Below are positions 17,983-35,440 of a stretch of 64,000 bases of DNA, piece by piece. Every line of letters starts with the position of its first letter. The first letter of the stretch is position 1. A model generated the notes under the pieces. The model was not told the DNA's origin, searched no databases, and saw only the letters and a list, made by a program, of their open reading frames with translations. The stretch comes from Asterias amurensis (Eukaryota > Echinodermata > Asteroidea > Forcipulatida > Asteriidae). The stretch is from the NCBI RefSeq assembly GCF_032118995.1, contig NC_092654.1, forward strand, positions 15,367,784 to 15,431,783, given 5' to 3'. The position numbers and the translations under genes were made by a program.

Positions 17983-17990
17983 ATGGCGGC
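17980..17990 (+). promoter_or_regulatory. YY1-type site over the MAIP1 start codon
   Basis: AACATGGCGGC fits the YY1 consensus (AAnATGGCGGC), with the ATG being the MAIP1 initiator. YY1 sites downstream of the transcription start and overlapping the ATG are a known class in animal housekeeping promoters. Binding is not shown here. Confidence 0.5.
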
Positions 17991-20900
17991 CTCCACTGGC
18001 AAGATTTTCTTCTGCAAACTTCTCAGCGAAAAATCAACACAAACCGTTAAAAATGTTTACTTATCTCGATTTAGTGGAACAAACACAGTGCAGAGGTATC
18101 TTTCCACATCAAAGCATATGAAACGAAGTAATCATTGTGTGCCTTTCTTTACAAATCACAAACTTTTCTGTGACAATCACTCACATTTACAACAACAACC
18201 GAAAACAACACTTCCGCAACTGCAACCTGCTTTGAAATGTGTTCAAACAAGCCAGTTGCGACCGTTTTCCAGTGAGTCCGATGGAGAGAGTGAGAAAAAA
18301 GTTAAACCCATTTTCGTTGCAATTCCTAATCCCTTCAAACTGATCAGAAACAAGATCTATTTCTGGATGATTCGGTCTTATTTTGATCCTGACTTCAAAG
18401 CAGAAGATTTCACCGAAGGAGCTATGCAGGTGAGAATAAAAATGATGATTTTTCTCTCTCCACACCCCTTAAATAATGCCCTAGCCTAGATTCTTAAATT
18501 GAACAACACTTATCTCTTCAGGACTTAATTTCCGTAAGCTGCGGAAACAGTGCAGTGGACTGCAGGCACTGCACACCAGAGGCCAGTGGTTTAAAGGAAC
18601 ATGTTGCCTTGGATCGGTCGAGTTGGTCTTTGAAAAGCGTTTTGTGACCGTTAGTTATAAAATGCATATGGTTAGAAAGATGATTTAAAAGTAGAATACA
18701 ATGATCTACACAAATATGCCTCGAAATTGCGTGGTTTTCTTTTTACCTCGTCCAATAACATGGTCGGCCATTTATGGGAGTCAAAATTTTGACTCCCATA
18801 AATGGCCGACCGTGATAGTTCGCGACGTAAAAAGAAAACCGTGCAATTTTGAGTGATACTTGTGTGGATCATTATATTCTACTTTTAAAACATCTTTCTA
18901 CCCGTATACATTTCATAACAAACGGTTTCAAACGCTTTTTATAGACCAACTCGTCCGATCCAAGGCAACGTGTTCCTTTAAGGGAATTAAGCATTGATTT
19001 GAAGCCCTAAGTAAACTAATGACCTGAAAAGCCCATCGCAGTCTTGTGTTTTTGTTTATAAATTTATAGATTTGTTGACTTTTTTTTTATTCAGTCAGCT
19101 AAAAATCTTTACAAATTACATTGTGTTGAAATATAGAATACTTACACATGAGATACATCTTCTCTTATTGGTTCCTTATTTCAATTATGGCTACTGTAAG
19201 CAACTTTGTGGTCAAGTAATCATTTTAGCTATAGTATAAGCCCTGCGTTTGCGATCTTGTGGATTTTCACTCAAGTTTGATCCATGCCTTCGTCAGGTCA
19301 GGCAAGGTCAACTTTCTAAAGTCTCTCTGTGGCTACCACTTCAATCTTTGTCATTACTCAATTTCTGACAAGGTTTGACAGAGCATTGAGCCCTAGGTAA
19401 CCACAGAGAGACCGTTCGTCTGAATAGGGAGAAACTGTGGATAAGGCGCCTTCAGACTAAACCCCATGATGTGAACATCTAAGAAGGAAATGACTAATAA
19501 CTTTTTGTCTTTGCCTTCTCATTCCTCCACAGTTGTTCCCCTTGTTAACCCGTCCCATTCATTAATGCCTCATTCTTTTCGCTCAAGGATTTTTTTAAAG
19601 GGAAATAAAGTCCAAAACACAAAGTCAAACTCACAGCACACAGGTTCTCACGGCATCATAGTTGAGTTTAAAATGTAAACTTGTGTACACTGTTATTGGG
19701 ATCGAGCATAAGTTTCAACATTGTGGGTTCCACAGTCACACTCTACTCCCTCTACAGTATACACACTTTTAAAATAAGTATTGACCCTTCTTTTGTTCAG
19801 TCAGGCTAAGCAACTTTCCCATTAAACTTTAGTGTAACATTAATAGATGGTCTGGTTCATGTGGCCAACAATTGATCCCTTGTTTAACCACAGTTTGCTT
19901 TTGCTGAACAGTTGGATTTCCTTTGCATGACCTACACATGTATAAAAAAATACAGCATGACCACATTTTATATCTGTTTTTGTTTCCACTTGCAGGCAAT
20001 GTGTACAATATCAAGATTCATTTCTGATGGTAACTTCGACCAACTGGAGGGACTGATGTCCAGAAAGGTATATATTCAAGATTATTTTGGTAGGCCCAGC
20101 AAGTTAGTGTGACCATGTACATGTATGTTAACTGTATATTAGGCATTGGTCAGTTTGAAAAACCCTCCACAGTTAAAATCAATGTAAAACTGTTATATGT
20201 ACATTGTACAAGGCACATACTGTGGTTTTCAGGCTTTTGTTTTGTTTTGTTTGTTAAGATGATCTTCCTGTCAAGGGAACACGGCAAACTCCCACAAGGG
20301 GATATAAACTCCAAGCTTACAGTAGCAACTGCAATTCTCTCTCAAACAAACATTGCTTTTTAACGTCTTTGTTTATGAATTGCACTAATCAAGAAATTGT
20401 AATTCAGTACCGAGAAGACAATACTTATTCTAGTAATTGTGGAACCAGTGGTTAGCTTGGGGATTCGAGCCCACAACCTTGTAATTGCAAGTCCTTTAGC
20501 CAATTTCACTAATCACTAGGATTAGTCACATCTCGAGTCACAGTACAAGGCTGGGACTTGTCCTAAGTCCTGAGATTAATCCTAAGTTAGGAAGAGTTTG
20601 GTGAAATCAATGGCTGCAGTCTTTCCACTGGACCACAGTGACTTGATTGAGTCCATGGTTGATGAATATCTTGTGTATTCTTTTTTATAGCTTTTAGATG
20701 AAGTCAAGGAGACCTTGAAAGACCTTGGGATGAGAGACCGTGCTAATATAGTTGTCAACACGGATGACGTTCTGCATATATTCCCACAGAATGTTGCTGT
20801 CCATTATGATGAAAGCGGTGAGTTTCTATTTAGAGGCAAACACCTTGAAAGTTACTATACTGCTAAATATTTGTTACATAAATTATTCTCCGTATTTTAA

Positions 20901-23900
20901 TATTGTTGTATATACATAGCCTGTCGGGGTATATGTTTTCTTATTCTTAAATCCTTGTGCGTTGTATCTTGTGCTATTTTTTTATCTGCCTGTTGTTACA
21001 TTTTCATTTTCATATAAATATATATATATATTTTTTTTTTTTTACTTGTGTGAGCAATGCAATTTCTTCTTTTGGAGATCAATAAAGTTTTCTTATGTCT
21101 TATGTCATATGTCTTATGTCTATCAGTTCAGTGTGCGTGAAGAGCTATCATTGGCGGAGAGTCATGTGCAGAGCGTATACACGTGTTAACATTTCCAAGG
21201 CAAGGGGTGTATTGTATTGGTCATAATATGTATTTTGTGCATATATTATGTACAAATAAAATGTTAATAAAATGTAGAAGAGCAACTGCTGTTCTAAATT
21301 GACATCGGCGTTCAGCTGCGAAGAATTTCAACACTAATTTCAAAACAAAACTTGGACTCGCTACAGACCTGATGCATCCGTTGACCCATAAAAGTTCTCA
21401 TTCTACCCATGCTCAGTGAGGATATGGAACTAGCTACCAGCTACCCCCATCAGCAGTGTTTGCTACATCTGTCGTAGCATTCCAGAAGGTAGCCCTTCTT
21501 CCAGCTTTGAGAGTTTTAACTCCTAGTGCTGGCTCCAGACTCCTGTAGTTTATATGCCTTTTACTCGCTCTTCTACAAATTAGTTTTTCACCACTTGACA
21601 AAAATGACCAGTGATGTCACCTGATGCAACATCCTAGTTTAGTTTCTGGTCCTTTGAGAACTGCTTAAGGGATTATGCCTACTCTTCGGAAGAATAAACA
21701 TAAATCGTTCATTAGCCTTGCTCAAGGCAGTCGCATTATTCGCTCCGAAAAGACGCCGCTGTAAACCCACCCGTATACCCTGTTCGTGGTGCGTGCCATC
21801 ACACCGCATGACCCACCCGTATACACACTGTCAGATCGTACGAATACTGTTTCACACAAGTCATCGCACTCGTACCACTAACCGCATGCGGAGGCCGTCA
21901 GGCCGACAGCCTTGTCGGGTCTGTATCTTCCGGGTTTATGTGTTGTATTGAAAAAATTCCACTAGTGGAAAAAATTGGGGGGGCTCTCGGATATGCTAGT
22001 ATGCAGCTCATGAATATGTATATCATTCGTCAGACCTATCAGACAACACAGGATGTGAGGCAAATGAATTATTCATTTTGACGTCCAATCACGCACGCCT
22101 ATCATGCTCACTGAGCGTCCGTGGTGGTGGTGTGTGATGATGTAGACATGTCTCGTCTTTCGCGGGCATTATGGTAATGAGCTGACCGTGGGAACTCTTC
22201 GCTTATTATAGTAATGAGGTCAGTGGCTTCAACACAGACCCTACAAGGCTATCGGCCTGACGGCCTCCGCATGCGGATAGTGTACGGGGGCACCGTGCCG
22301 TGCGATGTTACGCAGAGTGAGTACTGGTGGGTTTTATACAACGGCGGTCTTTTTTTCGGAGTGAATAATTCGACTGCCTTGAGCAAGGCTAATCGTTCAT
22401 TTATCTTCCAACCCTACCAAACTTTGGAAAGGTACAAGAATATAATGATTGCTGGTGTCTAGGCAACTTACAGAATGAAGGTTTGAATCCTGGCCTGGTC
22501 AATCTTGACACTTATTTGCTTGAGAAAGGCACTTGATCATAATTGCTTTCCTCCACCACGGAGTAGAAAATTGGTACCGTTGAGAGCTGGGGAGTCACCC
22601 GTGATGGACTTGCATCCTGTCCAGGGGAAATAGAAATATTCTCAGTCGTTTGATTCCAAGGAAATAAGATAAAAACACTGGTCTGATGAGCCATAATTGC
22701 TCAGGACAGACTTTACTTTACTACTTGGTGTCTAGGCATCATTTTTCATGCTCAGGGAATACATGTACATGTTTTTTATGGTTCCTCGTCTGCCAAGTGA
22801 AGAATGGAAACTAGACTGCGCTCACACACTGAACTTGTGGTTTGTGTGTGAGTTATTGCATACTTTGATGCACATTATATCAAGTGAACACATTTAGGTA
22901 AATCTTGTGTTTGCCGGAGTCCATACAACACATGTACAATAAAAATATCACATAAACACAGCATCCCAAAATGGGGCAAAAAGCAGGCCAGTATCTTGAG
23001 GATATTAAAGACAGTGGACACTATTGGTAATTGTCAAAGACCAGTATTCTCACTTGGTGTACTTCAACATATGCATAAAATAACAAACCTGTGAAAATTT
23101 TAGCTCAATTGGTTGTTGAAGTTGCGAGATAATAATGAAAGAAAAACACCCTTGTCTCACGAAGTGGTTTGCTTTCAGATGCTTGATTTCGAGACCTGAA
23201 ATTCTAAATCTTCTTTCTTGAAAACTATGTCACTTCGGGAGCTGTTTCTCACAATGTTTTATACCATCAACCCCTCCCCATTACTCGTTACCAAGTAAGG
23301 TTTTATACTCATAATTATTTTGAGTAATTACCAATAGTGTCCACTACTTTTAAGGTTTGTCAAAAACCTTTATAGAGGTTTGAAGAATCTGTAAGATAGC
23401 ATCATTCAAAATGTCTTACTGATTTGATATAAATGTTTTGTTGGCTTATTCAGCATATTGAATATTGTAGCATTTAGAACCGTGCCATTATACTATTTAC
23501 AGTTAACCCTCATTACAAAGAGCACTTGTTTTGAAGAGGTTCTGTTTATAATGGTACATTCTGAAGTCCCAAATCTCTTATTTGGTTTGTGTTTTTTGTT
23601 TTGCTGTCCGCTTGTAACAACGGTCCTGTTATAAAAAAGTAGTTTGTCCAGTCCCTTGGATCTTGTTACAACTTGGATCTTGTTACAACTTGAGTGCTTT
23701 GTGTTACTTTGTTTTGCTGTCTTCTTTCAATTTGAACAGAGTTCCTTGTAGTAAGAGAACATTTTGCCCATCCCAGCGATCTTGTTATAACGGGAATTGA
23801 CTGTAGTCACTTTTCATAACTGATCTTGATGCCACCTACATGTATGTTTGGTTTAATAATTGGTGAGGTTTGTAGCACCATGTGTAAATCTCTTTCTAGT

Positions 23901-26900
23901 AGAGTTGGTTCTGATAAAAACTGGTAGTTGACAACTCAAGTTTTGATCAGTGTGCTCTGATTGTCTTCAGGAGATTCTTTAGTCTTCATCCTCCTGAAGA
24001 CAAATGAAGCATACTGATCGAAATTTTAAGTTGTCAACATAGAGTTATATATAAGAACTAGAGGGTGCACTGGTGATGTTTCTTGCACAAACGCAACGGG
24101 ACCGTAAGGAGACACGCGCGCCATTCTGCACGCGCGTTGAATATGAAGAACACGTTGGAGTTTGTGTTTGTTGAACGCTGACGAATGCTGTTTTGTCAAC
24201 TTACAAATGGCCGCACAAACACACGCTAAGCAATGTCTGTTCAACTTAGTAAATGGCTGCCTGCGCGCATGCCGGGGCACGTATATAGGCCAGTGCGCCC
24301 TCTAGTTCTTATATATAACTTTAAGGTTGTCAACCACTGCTTCTTTTCAGAACCAACACTACTCAAAAGGGTCACTTCTAAAAAGAGTCACCTGCAGTTA
24401 TCACTACAAACGTCACCTATAAACACTCCCACCAGGCAAAGTTTTAAATCCTACTTTATGTTTGTTTTATTCAGGTGGAAAGTTTCTAAATATATTGATG
24501 CGTTTCTGGTGTCATAGCATGTCGTCAGAGGAGAGTGATAAAGGAGTTGTTGGAATGCGTATTGGTAGACCGCCCCCTGGAGTGTCTCAAGAGGAGTTTA
24601 ATAACATGGGCAGTGTCATCAGCTGTACATATGAGTGAGTCCAACCACCTTCTATCATCAGGCATGGTACTTCTTGGGGGCAACAAAGGCAATTAATGCC
24701 CCCTGGTCATTGCCTTGGTGCTCTTTAAATGTCATAGAAATGTACAATTTCCTCAAAGGGTGCCCTTAAAGACAGTGGACACTATTGGTAATTGTCAAAG
24801 ACCAGTCTTCTCACTTGGTGTATCTCAACATATGCATAAAATAACAAACCTGTGAAAATTTGAGCTCAATTGGTTGCGAGATAATAATTATAGAAAAAAC
24901 AAACCTTTGTCACATGAAGTTGTGTGCTTTTAGATGTTTGATTTCGAGACCTCAAGTTCTAAACTTGAGGTCTCGAAGTCAAATTTGTGGAAAATTACTT
25001 CTTTCTCGAAAACTACTCCACTTCAGAGGGAGCCGTTTCTCACAATGTTTTATAATACCAACCTCTCCCCATTACTCATTACCAAGTAAGGCTAATAATT
25101 ATTTTGAGTAGTTAACAATAGTGTCCACTGCCTTTAATAAGAAGGCAATGCCTCGGTGCCCTTGCCTTTTAAAAAATGAAGCAAATAGGCCTGTACATCA
25201 AACCTTTATACAAATTATTCAAACTCATTCAGTTTAAAATTCTTCTGCTCAATTTTAAAACTCTAATGGTGAGTGTCCTTATCTTTACAGAATTCATGAA
25301 ACAAAAACCTCAATCAACCAGTCTGTGATATTCCACACCCTCTCACCTTCAATTGTTGCCTGGGACCGATTTTACAAAGCAATGACATTTTTCGTAGGAC
25401 AAATAGTCAGTATCACCTTAGTGATTTGTATTGTGACATAACATTTAGCAACTGCGATTGATTGGTAGTTAAGATCAATCTTAGCTCTTTGTGAAATTGG
25501 CCCCTGGTCCTCGTGTGAAAACATGCTACGGTGACAGAGCTTTCTCTCTTGCTGCTTCCGAATTAGGGAAAACTCTGCCTCCCTAAATTCAAAATGCTTC
25601 TTGCTTACAAACATTCAAACTACATGAATGTTGAAGATGCATTTCTTCAAATCACTGTCATAACCCCATTCTCAATCTTGGTAATTTTTGTAACCTTTCT
25701 CTTGATTATTATCTGCTGTTTTATTGCATTATTTTTGGAAATTTGTATCTTTGTATTTTGGTGTTGTTAATTTGTTTACCCATCTTCATGTTTACTATTT
25801 GCTGTTTTTTATTGCATTATTTTTTTGTAAATTTGAATTCGATGCCCTGCTTTTACTAAATTGGTCTTCTAGGACATCAGCACCATAGCGTTTAGGAACA
25901 TAGTATTCAATGCAGTATAAATATATTTGGTTTCGGCTTGGCTTGGCTTCGGGGCTCGGCTCAGCTCGACTAGGCTTTTCACCTAAGCATTGGCCTGGCT
26001 TGGCTTTGCTTAGCTCGGCTCAGCATCTTGGCTCAGCAAGTGCCCAGCTTTTCTTGGCTTGGCTGGGCAACGTCATCAGCTCGGCTTGGGACGGCTTGGT
26101 TCGGTTTGGCTCAGCATTGCTAGGCTTTTTAGCTTGGCGCAGCTCAGTATCAATTTCGGCTTGGCTCGGCTTGGCCCGGCTAAGCATCTTGGCTCAGCAT
26201 CGGCTCAGCTTTTCTTGCCTTGGCTGGGCATCTGCATTGGCTCGGCTTGGTGCAGTTTGGCTCAGCATTGCTAGGCTTTTTAGCTTGGCGCAGCTCAGTA
26301 TCAATTTCGGCTTGGCTCGGCTTGGCCCGGCTAAGCATCTTGGCTCAGCATCGGCTCAGCTTTTCTTGCCTTGGCTGGGCATCTGCATTGGCTCGGCTTG
26401 GTGCAGTTTGGCTCAGCATTGCTAGGCTTTTTAGCTTGGCGCAGCTCAGTATCAATTTCGGCTTGGCTCGGCTTGGCCCGGCTAAGCATCTTGGCTCAGC
26501 ATCGGCTCAGCTTTTCTTGCCTTGGCTGGGCATCTGCATTGGCTCGGCTTGGTTCGGTTCAGCTCAGCACGGCTAGGCTTCTCGGCTTGGCTCGGCTCAG
26601 CATTTGCTCGGCTTGGCTCAGCTCGGCATTGGCTCGGCTTTACTTTGTTTGGCTTCCATGTAGCCCAGTTTGGCATCTGCTCGGCTAGGCTTGGCTTGAC
26701 TCGGTTCAGCTTGGCTTCTTGGCACGGCATCAGCATGGACGGCATCTGGTCGGCTCTGCATCGGCTTTGCTCGGTATCTCAGCTGCGCATTGGCCTAGCT
26801 TAGCTTGGCTTGGCTTGGCTCGGCTTGGCTTAGGCTTGCCCTCCCAAACTAGAGCAAAACAATGGGACAAATTTGGACATAACAACAAACCCCCAAAATA

Positions 26901-29443
26901 CTTTTCACCTAGTACTAGAAATTGGTACATATGTGTGCCTCATATTCCCTTGTGAAGCATCAGGCTTTATACTGTATACAGATGGCAGTGTGTTACCTTT
27001 CATTATAATCTACCAACTGCAACTTATTCTATCTTCATGAACAGTGTGTTCATATACATGTATAAATGTTGCTATCTTTACCTTTCATTCCATATAATAT
27101 AGGCATACATAGCTTAATAAATGCACTATTCATGATACAGTGTTGTGATACTTTTCCCATGCATGATAGTATTGCCATTGGAAAAACCAGATAAATTGTG
27201 ATTTATTATACTAAAATGTCTATATTGTGCATGTTTTTACTGTACAAACATGTCATTGTACAAATTGTTGTTATGATAACAACAAGCAACTTAACATCCA
27301 TTCATCTGTTTGTACATGTATATTTTAACGTACTAAAAGGGTTTTCTTTCTTGGAACGAAGGAGGTTAATTCCTTCATGTTGTTGTCTACATTGGCGACA
27401 ACTTAAGTCACCCCCAGAGAGGCTCAAGTCTCACAGCTAAAATGTCTGATGGAAATGAGCCCATTAGAGTCAACCTTCAAGCAATCCCTCTTGTACGCCA
27501 CTAACCCTGCTTTCTAACAAAATGCTTTCTTCACAGGGACATATAAATTAGATTTCCAAACTTGATGCGCATTTCGTATCATACCCATTCAATAAGGAGG
27601 AACCTTTTGAGTTTTATTTTCATCCTCTTAAAGAGAATGAAGATATATTGTGAGAAAATTCTTTCCCGCCCCGGTCTAGAAAATTAAGATTTGATCCATT
27701 AGTGGGTATCCTTGGGCATGCTATAAAGGTCATTATGTTTACAATGTCAGGACGAATGAAGAAAAAAAAACCACCCAGTGCAATGGTTTAATCATTTGTG
27801 TGCATACATTGGAATTAGCCCCTCCGAGATGGGTGTAATTTGATTTACAGTGGTAATCTACTTTGGTGGAATTCATTACTGTATATAACTGTCGTATCCC
27901 ATTCATGTGTCACTCACAAACCAAGTACCATTTGTCTCCGTCCTTTGTGTTTGAGCTCTAGATTTAACCTTGGCCTGCCCCCTTTAATCAAGATGCCTCT
28001 GCTCCAGATTTGTTCTTACAATACAGGTCAATTAGTGGCATTAAGACGTATTTTGTAGGCCAGAATTACTTCTTTAACAAAAAGTGTAGCATTTCTGAGC
28101 TTAGACTTCTCAGTTTTATATTTCGAAAACACTACTTAGAATTTAAAGCTGGGACATTATTGGTAATTACTCAAAATAATTATTAGCATAAAACCTTACT
28201 TGGTAACGAGTAATGGAGAGCTGTTGTGAGTATAAAATATTGTGAGAAACGGCTCCCTCTGAAGTAACGTATAGTTTTCGAGAAGGAAGTAATTTTTCAT
28301 GAATTTGATTTCGAGACATCAGAATTAAATTTTGAAAGCACACAACTCCGTGTGACAAGGGTGTTTTTTCTTCCATTATTATCTCGCAACTTCGACCACC
28401 AATTGTGTTCAAATTTTCACAGGTTTGTTTTTTATGCATATGTTGAGATACACCAAATGAGAAGACTGGTCTTTGACAATTACCAATAGTGTCCACTGTC
28501 TTTAAATAACTGGGGAGCTTAAGGAGCACACTGAAAACTAAATTGTTTAAAACTGAATGTTTTCACTGAATGGTTAAACCTGCTTAAATTCAGTTAACAA
28601 TTTATGGTTAGCAACGTTTTTTAATATTTTGTATTTTAGATCAAATTTGATTTTTAAATTTCAATATTCGTTTTTATATGTATTACTTTTAGGTTAAATG
28701 TTTTATTTAAATTATTTCTACTCCTATCAATATAATTAAGTTAATTACATACAATTGTACCGGCTGCTTATAGCTTTTGACTAGTGCCATTGATCAGTGC
28801 CCTTGAGCTTGCCGACACGAATAAGGTGCTACAAAAGTGTTGGTGTTATTATGATTAAAGGCAGTGGACACTACTGGTAATTTCTGAAAATAATTATTAT
28901 CATAAAACCTTTCTTGATTACAAGTAGTGGGGAGAGGTTGATAGTATAAAACGTTGTGAGAAACGGCTCCCTCTGAAGTGCCATAGTTTTTGAGAAAGAA
29001 GTAATTTTCCACGAATTTGATTTCGAGACCTCAAGTTTAGAACTTGAGGTCTCGAAATCAACCATCTAACCGCACACAACTTCATGTAAGAAGGGTTATT
29101 TTTCTTTCATTGTTATCTCGCAACTTCGATGACCGATTGAGCTCAAATTTGGACAGGTTTGTTATTTTATGCATATGTTGAGCCACACCAACTGTGAAGG
29201 CTAGACTTTGACAATTACCAATAGTGTCCACTGCCTTTAAGAGATTATCTCCATCTTACCCCTGATACTTATTTTTCTAGAGCTCCAGTTCATTATTTAA
29301 TTGGATTTCATAATTTTTGTTTCAGGTTCCACCGTGACTTTTCTCCAGGAGTTGACCCTAGCTGGATGGTGACCTACATTCAGCATGGTAAATGGCTGAA
29401 CACCGAGGCCAGATGGCTACCCAAGGAGTGGACCAGAGATTAA
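17983..29443 (+). CDS. MAIP1: MAIP1, m-AAA protease-interacting protein 1, complete
   Basis: Five exons: 17983-18429, 19996-20067, 20691-20817, 24475-24634 and 29326-29443 (stop TAA 29441-29443); all GT-AG, phases 0, 0, 1, 2. The product has 307 residues (human 291). MAIP1 sits in the mitochondrial matrix, binds the m-AAA protease (AFG3L2) and helps deliver EMRE for assembly of the calcium uniporter. The first ~50 residues (MAASTGKIFFCKLLSEKSTQ, then LSRFSG and RYLSTSK) are basic and Ser/Thr-rich, a likely targeting presequence. The family core starts at PNPFKLIRNKIYFWMIRSYF, then DPDF.AEDFTEGAMQ; later blocks are DQLEGLMSRKLLDEVKETLK, VAVHYDESGGKFLNILMRFW and the end FHRDFSPGVDPSWMVTYIQH. 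Introns 3 and 4 are 3.7 and 4.7 kb of repeats. The stop codon sits in a transposon target site. Annotated from memory of the family. Confidence 0.93.
18595..18977. mobile_element. Family B MITE, TTAA-flanked, in MAIP1 intron 1
   Basis: TTAA at 18591-18594 and 18978-18981 bracket ends AGGAACATGTTGCCTTGGAT and ATCCAAGGCAACGTGTTCCT. The element folds on itself, with centre GGGAGTCAAAATTTTGACTC inside longer arms (GGTCGGCCATTTAT / ATAAATGGCCGACC). Non-coding. AGGAA next to TTAA matches the end rule of T2/Kolobok MITEs. Confidence 0.85.
19260..19470. repeat. Weak fold-back sequence
   Basis: GTCTCTCTGTGGCTACC (19321-19337) faces GGTAACCACAGAGAGAC (about 19397-19413), 16 of 17 paired. Outer boundaries are not visible. 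Looks like the inner arms of an old palindromic element. Confidence 0.5.
20243..20640 (-). mobile_element. SINE interrupted by a family D MITE
   Basis: Same SINE as at 2983: GATGATCTTCCTGTCAAGGG, GGGATATAAACTCCAAGC, GGGGATTCGAGCCCACAACC. The head is split: GCAAGTCCTTTA at 20488-20498, then after the MITE TGCAGTCTTTCCACTGGACC (20615-20634). Confidence 0.75.
20499..20614. mobile_element. Family D MITE nested in a SINE
   Basis: Ends GCCAATTTCACTAATC and GGTGAAATCAATGGC; interior GATTAATCCTAAGTTAGG and GGGACTTGTCCTAAGTCC are the shared words of family D (see 39589 and 48544). The exact target duplication is unclear (at most about 3 bp). Confidence 0.7.
20980..21272. other. MAIP1 intron 3, left part
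   Basis: Contains an AT microsatellite with a T tract (about 21016-21043), a CTTATGTCTTATGTCATATG mini-array (about 21092-21120) and GTGAAGAGCTATCATTGGCG, a word also in the fold-back at 58127. No exon. Confidence 0.5.
21273..21577. mobile_element. 305-bp element with 11-bp inverted ends
   Basis: TGTAGAAGAGC (21273-21283) and GCTCTTCTACA (21567-21577) are exact complements. The interior is non-coding, with several CAG/CTG-rich words. No clear TSD or family; moderate support because the ends are short. Confidence 0.5.
21688..22409. mobile_element. 722-bp element with ~200-bp inverted arms
   Basis: The left arm TAGCCTTGCTCAAGGCAGTC (about 21713-21732) and CGCATGCGGAGGCCGTCAGG (about 21884-21903) return inverted at 22369-22390 and 22254-22273. 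Arms are about 85% alike; the core between them carries a normal-looking spacer. The inner arm is rich in CG dinucleotides. Partial frames in it lack family features. Probably a large non-autonomous DNA transposon; family unknown. Confidence 0.75.
22440..22720 (+). mobile_element. SINE body with 'GCATCCTGTCCAGGGG' core
   Basis: AGGTTTGAATCCTGGCCTGG (B box), CTTGAGAAAGGCACTTGATC, then GATGGACTTGCATCCTGTCC and AGGGGAAATAG. That last core word is widespread in marine-invertebrate SINEs as I recall. The A box is missing, so it is 5' truncated. Confidence 0.55.
23009..23349 (+). mobile_element. Family A MITE, central hairpin collapsed
   Basis: TTAA at 23005-23008 and 23350-23353 flank AGACAGTGGACACTATTGG and AATAGTGTCCACTACTTT. 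The usual central palindrome (..GAGACCTCAAG / CTTGAGGTCTC..) keeps only its left half, making the copy about 40 bp shorter than others. Confidence 0.85.
23498..23805. mobile_element. ~308-bp element with degenerate TIRs
   Basis: TACAGTTAACCCTCATTACA faces TTATAACGGGAATTGACTGTA. Internal reiterations TTGGATCTTGTTACAACTTG (twice about 23656-23690) and TTGTAACAACGG / TTGTTATAACGG recur within it. Old, non-coding, family unknown. Confidence 0.5.
23901..24355. mobile_element. Fold-back element split by a second MITE
   Basis: Outer arms GAGTTGGTTCTGATAAAAAC and TTTTCAGAACCAACACT; inner arms GTTGACAACTCAAGTTTTGA / AATTTTAAGTTGTCAAC and GTCTTCAGGAG / CTCCTGAAGAC. The right arm is broken at 24038 by the element below and resumes at about 24322. 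Confidence 0.65.
24043..24320. mobile_element. 278-bp MITE with 30-bp TIRs
   Basis: AGTTATATATAAGAACTAGA plus GGG(T/C)GCACTGG at the left is mirrored by CCAGTGCGCC plus CTCTAGTTCTTATATATAACT at 24290-24320. TAAGTTGTCAAC (24027-24038) and TAAGGTTGTCAAC (24322-24334) flank it. The interior is CG-rich for this DNA (ACACGCGCGCC, GCACGCGCG). Confidence 0.8.
24660..25200. repeat. Repeat E interrupted by a family A MITE
   Basis: Left half GGGGGCAACAAAGGCAATTA ... CCTCAAAGGGTGCCC (to 24765); right half AAGAAGGCAATGCCTCGGTG ... AATAGGCCTG from about 25138. The split lets the empty site be read. Confidence 0.7.
24770..25133 (+). mobile_element. Family A MITE inside repeat E
   Basis: TTAA 24766-24769 and 25134-25137. 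Central palindrome AGACCTCAAGTTCTAAAC / TTGAGGTCTCG present. Ends AGACAGTGGACACTATTGGT and CAATAGTGTCCACTGCCT. Confidence 0.88.
25210..25625 (+). mobile_element. LINE 3' scrap split by a small MITE
   Basis: Before the MITE: AAAACTCTAATGGTGAGTG and CCAGTCTGTGATATTCC. After it, GGTGACAGAGCTTTCTCTCT translates as GDRAFSLAASELGKTLPP, the FS.AAP.LWN.LP motif of CR1/L2-type LINEs with several changes. Confidence 0.6.
25362..25504. mobile_element. 143-bp family D-like MITE in the LINE
   Basis: GGGACCGATTTTACAAAG and CTTTGTGAAATTGGCCCC are near-complementary ends. Inner words TATCACCTTAGTGATTTGTA and GATCAATCTTAGCTCTTTG resemble family D. Confidence 0.6.
25930..26840. repeat. GGCTN pentamer satellite with a 151-bp higher-order unit
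   Basis: About 0.9 kb built from GGCTT, GGCTC, GGCTA and CAGC words. Between about 26069 and 26560 a 151-bp unit repeats three times (GCTCAGCATTGCTAGGCTTT starts at 26110, 26261 and 26412), units almost identical; the flanks are more degenerate. Because the pentamer rarely makes a stop codon, long frames open in several registers on both strands (up to 171 codons, rich in Ala, Gly, Leu, Ser, Arg). I see no reason to call them genes. It lies in MAIP1 intron 4. The plus strand is strongly G+T over A, a compositional skew. Confidence 0.9.
26841..28141. other. MAIP1 intron 4, unassigned part
   Basis: No repeat that I recognise. 27340-27520 is less AT-rich (GAACGAAGGAGGTTAATTCC, GATGGAAATGAGCCCATTAG) but has no consistent exon. 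A polypurine run lies at about 27762-27770. Confidence 0.4.
28146..28501 (-). mobile_element. Family A MITE (minus orientation)
   Basis: Begins GCTGGGACATTATTGGTAAT after TTAA (28142-28145) and ends ACCAATAGTGTCCACTGTC before TTAA (28502-28505). The central hairpin is partly lost. Confidence 0.82.
28859..29236 (-). mobile_element. Family A MITE, full palindrome, 90 bp from last MAIP1 exon
   Basis: TTAA 28855-28858 and 29237-29240. Ends AGGCAGTGGACACTACTGG and CAATAGTGTCCACTGCCT. The centre TTTCGAGACCTCAAGTTTAG folds on AACTTGAGGTCTCGAAATC. Confidence 0.87.
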
Positions 29444-29462
29444 AGGGACCAGAGATTAAAGG
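29431..29462 (+). repeat. 16-bp tandem duplication across MAIP1 stop / MITE junction
   Basis: GACCAGAGATTAAAGG occurs at 29431-29446 and again, exactly, at 29447-29462. The first copy carries the codons for the last residues and the stop TAA; its last bases AGG are MITE end. Confidence 0.92.
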
Positions 29463-29780
29463 AACACGTTGCCTTGGATTGGTCTAGTTGATCTTTGAAA
29501 AGAGTTTGAAGCTGTCTGTTATGAAATGCAAATGGTTAGATAGATAATTTAAAAGTAGAATATTATATATTTCAAAATTGCACGGTTTTTCTTTCACATC
29601 ATGAAGAAACACTTGTGTTAGTAATAGAAAACCGGGCAATTTCGCGTGATACTTGTGTGGATCATTATATTCTACTTTCAAAATATCTTTCTAACCATAT
29701 GCATTTCAGTAAAAACGGTTTCAAACGCTTTTCAAAGACCAACTCGACTGATCCACACTGACCCAAATCAACGTGTTCCT
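29460..29780. mobile_element. Family B MITE inserted in the MAIP1 stop-codon TTAA
   Basis: Starts AGGAACACGTTGCCTTGGAT after TTAA (29456-29459) and ends CAACGTGTTCCT before TTAA (29781-29784). 321 bp; it lacks most of the central palindrome seen at 18595. It probably forms the start of the MAIP1 3' UTR. Confidence 0.85.
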
Positions 29781-29899
29781 TTAATGCTGCATGATGAGCT
29801 TGAGATGGTCATAGGTTGCTGCAGTCCACCACTTAGCTGTGTTTGTTCCTCAGTTTAAACACCTGCATTTACATTCAAATCTTTGCACCTCACTCCAGG

Positions 29900-30830
29900 C
29901 CCAATACTTCACAGCGGCAACAAAGGCGATTGCCTTCATGCCCCCTGGTCATTGCCTTGGTGCCCTTAAAATGCTCCAGTAGAAATTTACAATTTCCTCA
30001 TAGGGTGCCATTTACCAATAATAATAAATAATAATAATAATAATAAACAACGCTTATAAAGCGGCTTACATCCATGATTGGACCCCAAGGCGCTGTACAC
30101 ATTAAAAATAGCTGCAAACAAGAGCAAAAAAAAACCACGAGCATAAAAGATTTCTACAAATATAAACCACAAAATGGACCAGCCAATAGTTAAAACCACA
30201 AACCGCGAAATTTAAAAAGTTATGGAAAAGCACTACTATAAAAAGATTAGTTAAACTTACAATACTTTAAAAAGGAGTCCATATAGGAAATACACTTACA
30301 ATTATATCATATCAGGGGTCGATCCCGCAAAGAGTCAGGACCAGTCCCTTTAAAACTAGTCCCAAGAGATATTAAAATGTATGGCCAGTCCTAAAATTAA
30401 GATGAGTAACTTAATGTCCTAACTTGAAAAAAGACTAGCCCTAAACTCTCTAAGAATTCCACCCCCATGAGAAACAATGTACTTAGTCATTTAAAACAAC
30501 ACACCAAAACATTATAAAGATATGGCCAGTCCTAAAATTAAGATGAGTAACTTAATGTCCTAACTTGAAAAAAGACTAGCCCTAAACTCTCTAAGAATTC
30601 CACCCCCATGAGAAACAATGTACTTAGTCATTTAAAACAACACACCAAAACATTATAAAGATATGAAAATAACTCACAAAAGAAAGCAAGTTAAAGTTAC
30701 AAAAACAATTCATAACAAATGTCACTCAAGAGAAAAAACATGCATTATGAGTAGGCAATGTACTTAGTTAAAAGGAGGAAATGCCTTGGTGGCCTTGCCC
30801 CAGGTAGCAATCAGGCCCGTCACTCTATAT
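29900..30830. repeat. Repeat E interrupted by a ~750-bp insertion
   Basis: Left half GGCAACAAAGGCGATTGCCT ... CCTCATAGGGTGCCATTTACC (to about 30011); right half AGGAGGAAATGCCTTGGTGG ... AATCAGGCCCG from about 30772. The insert starts with an (AAT)n tail and CAACGCTTATAAAGCGGC ... CCCCAAGGCGCTGTACAC, which on the minus strand is a usual non-LTR 3' end (AGCGCCTTGGGG, then GCTTTATAAGCGTTG, then TTATT repeats). Confidence 0.6.
30381..30662. repeat. Perfect 141-bp tandem duplication
   Basis: The unit starts ATGGCCAGTCCTAAAATTAA at 30381 and again at 30522; I see no difference between the two copies. It lies within the insertion described above. Confidence 0.9.
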
Positions 30831-31255: not shown

Positions 31256-32535
31256 GAAGGGAAATAGTACGTGTGTTTGCCCTGGCATTTACGTAAAATA
31301 ATTACTGAGAGTTTGGCTGACACAAGTGACTTATTGCTACCGCCCGTCCATAACTAACATAGCCATGGGACAATGCGTGTATAATTGCGAGATTGAAACA
31401 TGCACTTTTTGCATTACAACTCATCAATCAGAATGTCAAATATTTTCAAGTTTGTATGTGATCGAAAGTTATAAATTTTAAAATAGATTTTTGTCTGGCC
31501 ACTTCTTATACCACGAGCGCTTTAAGAGTATGATAAATATACTGTTATACAGCTGATCTTTCTGGAGTTTTTATAATGTGATGACATACTTTTATTGAGC
31601 TTCTTTTTATTTTTCATTTCTTACAAGGATTTTATTGTTTTTGTGTAATCATATTTTATATTGCAGTTTTGTTTAGTAAGTGAGGCTTTTTCTGTTTTAA
31701 TCCGTGAGAGGTTAATTTACCGATAATTAGAGATTGATGGTGTCTGTGCGCGAATACAGTGGCTAGGGATGCGGTCGGCATCCGCTGTTACCTCGCTCAA
31801 AATGGATAGATTTAACGATCCTTGCGAAAATACTGACATTTTGTTTGTTGCTGTTTTCTCAACAAGTACACACTTTTACTCAGCTTGAACCTTCACAGAG
31901 GACCTTGATTGTTTTACGTTGACGAAAAAACACTTTTACAATAACACTACCTTTAAATCCCCATTGGGCGGAGTATTAAAGGATTTGCAGGTTTGTAAGA
32001 TTGCCGAAGCTTTAAGTGCAAAATGTTTATCCTGGTAAGATATTCTGCCTTGAATCTGATTGCTGTTTAAAAGAATCATTAAAGACATAGTAGACACCAC
32101 GAATGGTATTTAATTGAATATATTCATTCTGAAAAGGTCACTGATGATAAAGTTCATACCAGTACCAATCCATAAGAAAGAATATAATTCGTCTAAATTG
32201 CTTTTCAATGAAGGATGCTTTTACCAGCATTTTAAAATTCCCGCAAATCACATTTGTTTTTGTTATAGCTTGACTCCCGCAATTAAAATAAGTCTAAAGT
32301 AAACGTGCACCCGTTTCGTTGTTTTCACTCAAACAAAGCATGGTTGATTTAATACAGGATGGAAGTAAGTTCGCTGTTCCATAATTCAAACAATTGTGTA
32401 GTACCCATACTTTGCATTCTTCTGAAGACGAACAGAAAGTACTGTCCGAAACGTCGATAGCACAATAGCTCTGTTTAGAGCAAGTAAGCCCACCCCTCCA
32501 AAAAATGATTAACACAAGTTGTACCCGCAAGAATG
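31256..32535. other. Gene-free stretch
   Basis: No credible exon. CCTGAAGACGAACAG-like and GTCCGAAACGTCGATAG words at 32410-32460 resemble a motif common at ends of retroposons. TTAAAGACATAGTAGACACC at about 32080 could be one end of another TTAA MITE; I do not see its partner. Confidence 0.4.
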
Positions 32536-32539
32536 TTAA

Positions 32540-32914
32540 AGGAACGTTACAGAATTGGTAAGAAACAAAAATCGTGAAGATCACAGATTAACATAAAACT
32601 TACATGGTCTAATGATGATGATAGTAGAAAACATCACTTGAAATATTTCTGTCTGAAATTTCATATTTAATGAGAAATAAACAATCTAATTTCGCGTTTG
32701 GAGTTTATCACTCAGTGAGCGTTTTATTCATTTTTATTTTGACATCAATGCAATACAAAAATGTGTAATCGGTTTTCACTATTCTCTCGTGACCCAGATG
32801 ACCGATCGATCCCAAACTTCTACAGGTTTGTCAGTTTATGTAAATGGTGGATTACATAAAGTGTTTAAACTGCCAGCAACTGTTTGTTAGCAAAAACAAT
32901 TCTGTAATGTTCCT
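32540..32914. mobile_element. Family H MITE, TTAA-flanked
   Basis: TTAA at 32536-32539 and 32915-32918; ends AGGAACGTTACAGAATTGGT and AACAATTCTGTAATGTTCCT. Interior non-palindromic apart from the ends (TGACCGATCGATCCCAAAC, ACTTCTACAGGTTTGTC). 375 bp, non-coding. Confidence 0.87.
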
Positions 32915-33490
32915 TTAATATTTACGTTGTACTTCCAATATTCACACCCTGCAAAGCTTCGAACACTACTTCACATAACAAATTGTATTATATCGATGAA
33001 TGAAATAAAGTTTCTTATTTTGAAATGTTGAGCGTAATGGAAGGACACTTCTTTTATTTTTTTAGTACAAGCGTAGATATTCCTTGCCTGTTTCAGAAAG
33101 TAAGGATAGGCTCAGCAATTGTCCTCTTCGCTTGTTTTTAGTCCAGGGTAGTTTCGATGGCAGTGTGCTCAATTTTCAAACCCACTTTTCAACAAGGATA
33201 TTTGCTAGCGTAATCAAAAACAAAACAAAACAACATACAAACAAAGAAAAAGAAATGGGGTATGGCTAGATATATATTAAAAACAAATTTTTAACTTTGA
33301 TTTCTTGCAGCTTTTATGTTGCGCAAAACAGATTGACTTTGTGTTTAAGTATGCTGCTTATTAATTGCTGACATTAACCAGGTAAAGAATTTTAAATTTT
33401 AATTGTTTCTTGGAGTATGTTTTTGCTCTATTTGGATGGTTTGTAATTGTTGCTTGCCATGTAGGCCTAGACCATTGGAAAATAATACCC

Positions 33491-34774: not shown

Positions 34775-35440
34775 CATGTTTGTTGTTTATTTGTTTATCC
34801 GAGATGATCTTCCAGTCAAGAGAAATTTGCAAACACCCACAAGGATATAAACGCCAAGCTGGCAGCTAGCAGCCAATCTCTCTCGTATGAACATTCGTCT
34901 ATGAATATGAATTGCACATAATTGTTGTTCAAGACGACAATACGTATGCTATAGTTATGTCTTTGTGAAATCATCGGCTCGTTTGAAAGATTCGAACCAC
35001 AAACCTGTAATTGCAAGTCCTGCACTTTAAAGGCAGTGGACACTTTTGATAATTACTCAAAATAATTATTAAACATAAAACCTTACTTGGTAACGAGTAG
35101 TAGGGAGAGTTTGATGGTATAAAACATTGTGAGAAACGCGGGGCTCCCTCTGAAGTGACGTAGTCTTTGAGAAAGAAGTAATTTTCCACGAATTTGATTT
35201 CGAGACCTCAAGTTGAGAATTTGAGGTCTCGAAATCAAGCATCTGAAAGCACACAACTTCGTGTGACAAGGGTGTTTTTTTTCTTCATTATTATCTCGCA
35301 ACTTCGACGACCATTTGAGCTCAAATTTTCACAGGTTGTTGTTTTATGTATATGTTAAGATACACCAAGTGAGAAGACTAGTCTTTGACAATTACCAATA
35401 GTGTCCACTGCCTTTAACCATGTGGTACGTAATATGGACA
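34775..35440 (-). mobile_element. SINE interrupted by a family A MITE
   Basis: GAGATGATCTTCCAGTCAAG ... GATTCGAACCACAAACC ... GCAAGTCCTGCACTTTAA, then the MITE, then TTAACCATGTGGTACG, which is the CTAACCACTGGACCACGG part of the tRNA-like head. Confidence 0.75.
35031..35413 (-). mobile_element. Family A MITE nested in a SINE
   Basis: TTAA at 35027-35030 and 35414-35417. Ends AGGCAGTGGACACTTTTGAT and CCAATAGTGTCCACTGCCT. Full centre (GAGACCTCAAGTTGAG / AATTTGAGGTCTCG). Confidence 0.9.

Follow-up and report, generated by a model that had tools for sequence, protein, structure and literature searches.

How a transposable element can come to lie directly behind the coding sequence of a gene, with the end of that coding sequence present twice and the protein most likely unchanged, is the question raised by one locus in the window, the whole stretch of 64,000 nucleotides (64 kb) analysed here. 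The gene model has five exons (17983-18429, 19996-20067, 20691-20817, 24475-24634 and 29326-29443) and translates to 307 aa. Its name, MAIP1, is tentative, taken from the initial annotation and from a match to the Tim44-like Pfam domain that stays below the cut-off (E 0.00025, 21.6 bits; cut-off 29.6); this domain we take to be a mark of MAIP1. A search of solved structures with the gene product returned a single match with an E value of 0.68, which is not meaningful. The last exon encodes the C-terminal end ...RWLPKEWTRD-stop, and its final codons at 29438-29443 read GAT-TAA, placing a TTAA across the stop as the initial annotation had pointed out. Compared with the genome this exon occurs once, matching itself alone, and there is therefore no paralogous empty site. 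The features on which the argument turns are as follows.

29326..29443, plus strand: last coding exon of the MAIP1-like gene (acceptor TTTCAG followed by G; frame continuous with the upstream exons)
29431..29446, plus strand: first copy of the duplication, comprising coding end, stop and AGG (sequence, exact tandem match)
29440..29443, no strand: TTAA over the stop codon, first of three (sequence read)
29447..29462, plus strand: second copy of the duplication, which overlaps the start of the MITE by its final 3 bp (sequence, exact tandem match)
29456..29459, no strand: left target-site TTAA adjoining the MITE (sequence; family rule)
29460..29780, no strand: 321-bp foldback MITE with ends AGGAACACGTTG...CAACGTGTTCCT, without most of the family's central hairpin (sequence, alignment)
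29475..29755, no strand: two inverted arms of 92 nt each, 29475-29566 and 29664-29755, 83% complementary (inverted-repeat comparison and RNA folding)
29781..29784, no strand: right target-site TTAA

The MITE had been described as following the TTAA of the stop and ending before the TTAA at 29781-29784; this is what we see, and the TTAA that it adjoins is the second of the three. Its 12-bp inverted ends are identical, with AGGAACACGTTG at 29460 on the plus strand and at 29769-29780 on the minus strand. The RNA from 29444 to 29784 is predicted to form one long hairpin (-135.8 kcal/mol, z -13.4 against 100 shuffles), and folding of this strength is expected of a foldback element. Neither the MITE nor its exact 23-bp end was matched in a plasmid collection, in viral contigs, or in bacterial and archaeal contigs. 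The view that the 3' UTR starts in a transposon is supported. The further suggestion of a second, in-frame-looking stop nearby did not hold: the TAA at 29457-29459 lies 16 bp past the first stop in the +1 frame, and reading through the first stop gives 15 codons before a TGA at 29489-29491.

The MITE (family B) belongs to a very large family. Exact copies of its 23-bp end TTAAAGGAACACGTTG number 19,094 in the genome (491.5 Mb, 23 contigs), and the same pattern read backwards occurs 0 times in these 491.5 Mb; family A contributes an additional 24,822 exact 23-bp ends (TTAAAGGCAGTGGACACTATTGG). Family B copies were aligned in 59 rows, of which the window supplied three and loci elsewhere 56, with a consensus of 382 bp. 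The loci were picked by similarity or by exact ends, a sample biased to well-kept copies, and two of the 56 locus rows (L064 and L078, 422 bp) are composites containing nested copies; 54 distinct locus copies remain. TTAA is found on both sides in 49 of these 54, and one side is altered in the other five (L002, one copy in L004, L020, L051 and L053); beyond the TTAA the flanks of the aligned copies have, by eye, no common sequence.

Nested copies indicate which bases are duplicated. When the flanks of the nested copy L059 are rejoined they read ATTGTTAATTACTC, with a single TTAA, and a family A copy in the window that carries no insertion has ATTGTTAACTACTC there, its single TTAA in the same place, with 3 differences in 46. 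L078, rejoined, is one base off an unoccupied copy, and the differing base makes its TTAA. Because the rejoined nested copies carry one TTAA, TTAA is the duplicated target. The claim that such a MITE can enter a stop codon of this kind and leave the protein unchanged is supported, and since the family duplicates TTAA, as the sister copies and the rejoined nested sites show, the GATTAA stop should predate the insertion. Separately, in L097, L138, L078 and L064 the MITE lies inside other copies, its internal insertion points being the same or close together (behind GAGTTGGTCT or GAGTTGGTCTA), and in L097 the unit is present twice in a row. At another locus (L085:1296-1691, G000:C15) a MITE copy lies 5 nt past the stop (TAG) that closes a piggyBac-type transposase frame of 719 aa.

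We consider it likely that a Kolobok/T2-type MITE entered the TTAA of the MAIP1-like stop with the protein unchanged, and that a 16-bp duplication of the junction came later. A non-autonomous element would have inserted into the stop-spanning TTAA; because the enzyme that moves the MITE duplicates TTAA, GAT-TAA would have been kept and the same protein made at the time of insertion. Replication slippage, or end-joining repair with ~1 bp of shared sequence, would then have copied a 16-bp stretch spanning the left junction, so that one copy now separates the stop from the MITE and the 3' UTR would run through the 321-bp hairpin. At this locus we infer both the order of these events and the unchanged protein at insertion. 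This account predicts GACCAGAGATTAATGCTGC at the MAIP1 stop region where the MITE is absent.

The duplication itself is as first described, exact and including 3 bp of the MITE. GACCAGAGATTAAAGG stands in tandem in two identical copies, each made up of 13 bp of gene and 3 bp of MITE; no further match with two or fewer mismatches occurs in the 64-kb window or in 100 shuffles. The identity at period 16 spans 17 bases (29430-29446 against 29446-29462), and therefore 1 bp is common to the breakpoints.

As to order, the alternative that the coding end was duplicated first, the MITE then entering the second TTAA and the AGG resembling its start by chance, is unlikely. A TTAA is present in both copies and either could have served as a target. 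However, had an uninterrupted gene end been duplicated, the copies would be separated by GTG; AGG is seen instead, which would need two more changes or a filler equal to the end of the MITE, and the right flank reads TTAA-TGC without AGG, which identifies the second AGG as MITE sequence. Duplication after insertion is thus most simply the order, one step explaining everything, and the earlier claim that the duplication came later stands to that extent. The age of the duplication points, if weakly, the same way. The MITE at the stop has the highest divergence of the 59 rows (K2P 0.183; 0.052-0.137 in the others), yet the 16-bp unit is the same in both copies, suggesting that the duplication is younger; this is weak evidence of youth because the first 20 bp of this MITE copy also match the consensus exactly.

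The superfamily was assigned from the termini and the target. Beside the TTAA, both ends of the element read AGGAA. Kolobok termini are given as 5'-RR and those of the Xenopus T2-MITEs as AGGRR (PMC9587614 and PMC6004289), and a terminal motif CC[C/T]T is given for piggyBac-type elements (PMC2872659). The element thus fits a non-autonomous Kolobok/T2-type MITE, for which we infer a Kolobok transposase. The Xenopus T2-MITE/Kolobok elements (PMC6004289) share the TTAA target, termini of the AGGRR type, a large number of copies, and a non-autonomous structure with inverted repeats; they come from another animal, and the comparison of sequence covered the terminal motif.

That the element is instead a piggyBac-type MITE is improbable. 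Such elements also target TTAA, and the genome holds 70 matches to the piggyBac transposase (PF13843), but the ends are AGGAA and not CC[C/T]T. In the five of these 70 loci that were fetched (~5 kb each), no pair of MITE ends encloses a transposase: family B ends are present at L083 and L085 without enclosing it, and the piggyBac locus L084 has CCC ends with 4 differences in 16 between both ends. PiggyBac-type CMITEs of corals (PMC2872659) share with the starfish MITE the TTAA target duplication, the short length, and a tandem duplication ascribed to slippage. They differ in having CC[C/T]T ends and a tandem duplication of the whole element, whereas the starfish MITE has AGGAA ends and a duplicated junction.

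To return to the Kolobok/T2-type assignment, an autonomous partner of the MITE was not found in searches with PF13843, PF20700 and PF20478, nor in the five piggyBac loci and the one PF20478 locus read. PF20700, which we took as a guess to be the Kolobok transposase profile, had no matches in the genome and none in the controls either, and is hence uninformative. PF20478 is the P2X7 C-terminus, a domain that goes by the name KolX in Kolobok elements, and has 27 genome matches; at the locus read (L147:1-3801, G000:C9; 3.8 kb) a TTAAAGG end was absent. Thirteen of the 27 matches, including L147, have a common 89-aa frame and align to almost the same section of the profile; they probably represent a repeat that includes a KolX-like piece.

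Whether the locus is unusual can be judged from rates. TTAA occurs 563 times in the 64 kb, corresponding to ~4.3 million in the genome, and half of the 19,094 exact ends gives ~9,500 copies, decayed ends being uncounted. By chance, ~2.2 insertions per thousand genes with an NNT-TAA stop are expected from this MITE family alone. The pattern TTAAAGG-N(3-33)-TTAAAGGAACACGTTG, which captures junction duplications, has 120 genome matches, and 92 of these candidate places were read (30 in L051-L080, 61 in L087-L146, and the MAIP1 site). Among them are at least seven distinct junction duplications: MAIP1, L076/L077 (the same duplication at two sites separated by 0.9 kb, counted once), L105, L113, L116, L124 and L144. 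L097 and L138 pass the rule and are a MITE nested in a MITE, so they were left out of the seven. The junction duplications have 1 to 6 bases shared between breakpoints. Per exact end they amount to ~4e-4 (7/19,094), a lower bound with 28 of the 120 places unread. Background was counted by the same rule at every position, low-complexity units left out; it was 20 of 63,840 positions (3.1e-4) in the window minus the MAIP1 event, and 217 of 114,172 (1.9e-3) in 35 loci, with 137 of the 217 supplied by L005 and L029.

It is very unlikely that transposition itself, through faulty insertion or excision repair, produced the junction duplication as a side effect: several distinct cases do occur among the candidate places read, but their lower-bound rate per end is in no clear excess over the window or the 35 loci. 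A habit of the family of duplicating its junctions was likewise considered and rejected, the rate being not clearly above background. Insertion followed by an independent duplication remains our preferred account, and both events look ordinary, at about the rate expected for a large family and for background tandem duplications. A narrow search of the open-licence literature brought up no paper that we recognised as dealing with this MITE family or with the MAIP1 locus.

The junction also bears on where transcripts end. Two hexamers are concerned.

29439..29444, plus strand: ATTAAA, a variant polyadenylation hexamer, overlapping the stop codon; candidate signal (sequence)
29455..29460, plus strand: ATTAAA at the MITE junction, candidate; the rejoined flanks read ATTAAT (sequence)

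The first base of the MITE converts the ATTAAT of the rejoined empty site to ATTAAA, and the duplication doubles the hexamer (29439 and 29455). Because elements of the family begin with A, insertion after an A gives ATTAAA; an A precedes the TTAA, with ATTAAA at the junction as the result, in 38 of the 156 distinct junction flanks read. AATAAA hexamers lie downstream at 30023 and 30042. Judged from these motifs, there is a slim chance that the insertion made a candidate polyadenylation signal; transcripts may then have their 3' ends within the MITE and hardly any 3' UTR, and the family could seed cleavage sites genome-wide. Should that be so, new transcript ends would arise from a very abundant MITE family; failing that, the locus would be an ordinary outcome of a large family. 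The locus is a clean example of a TTAA-duplicating element on a stop codon going unnoticed by the protein, with a hairpin-forming transposon opening the 3' UTR. MITEs in the 3' UTRs of plant genes, as reviewed in PMC12595863, are alike in that transposon sequence lies in or near the 3' UTR; they differ in that the starfish MITE entered an animal gene, and did so at the stop codon itself.

Other repeats surround the gene end. An apparent long tandem repeat lies upstream of the last exon (window 25904-26800), judged from repetitive translations in several ORF frames. Window 32532-32922 has an inverted repeat with TTAA on its flanks, a third such element, whose ends read TTAAAGGAACGTTACAGAATTG. 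A second TTAA family, with TTAAAGGCAGTGGACAC-like ends and the 24,822 exact 23-bp ends counted in the genome, occurs at window 28855-29240, 35027-35417, 23005-23353 and 24766-25137, one copy lying in the intron directly before the last exon; its ends read AGGCA, which agrees with RR and not with AGGRR.
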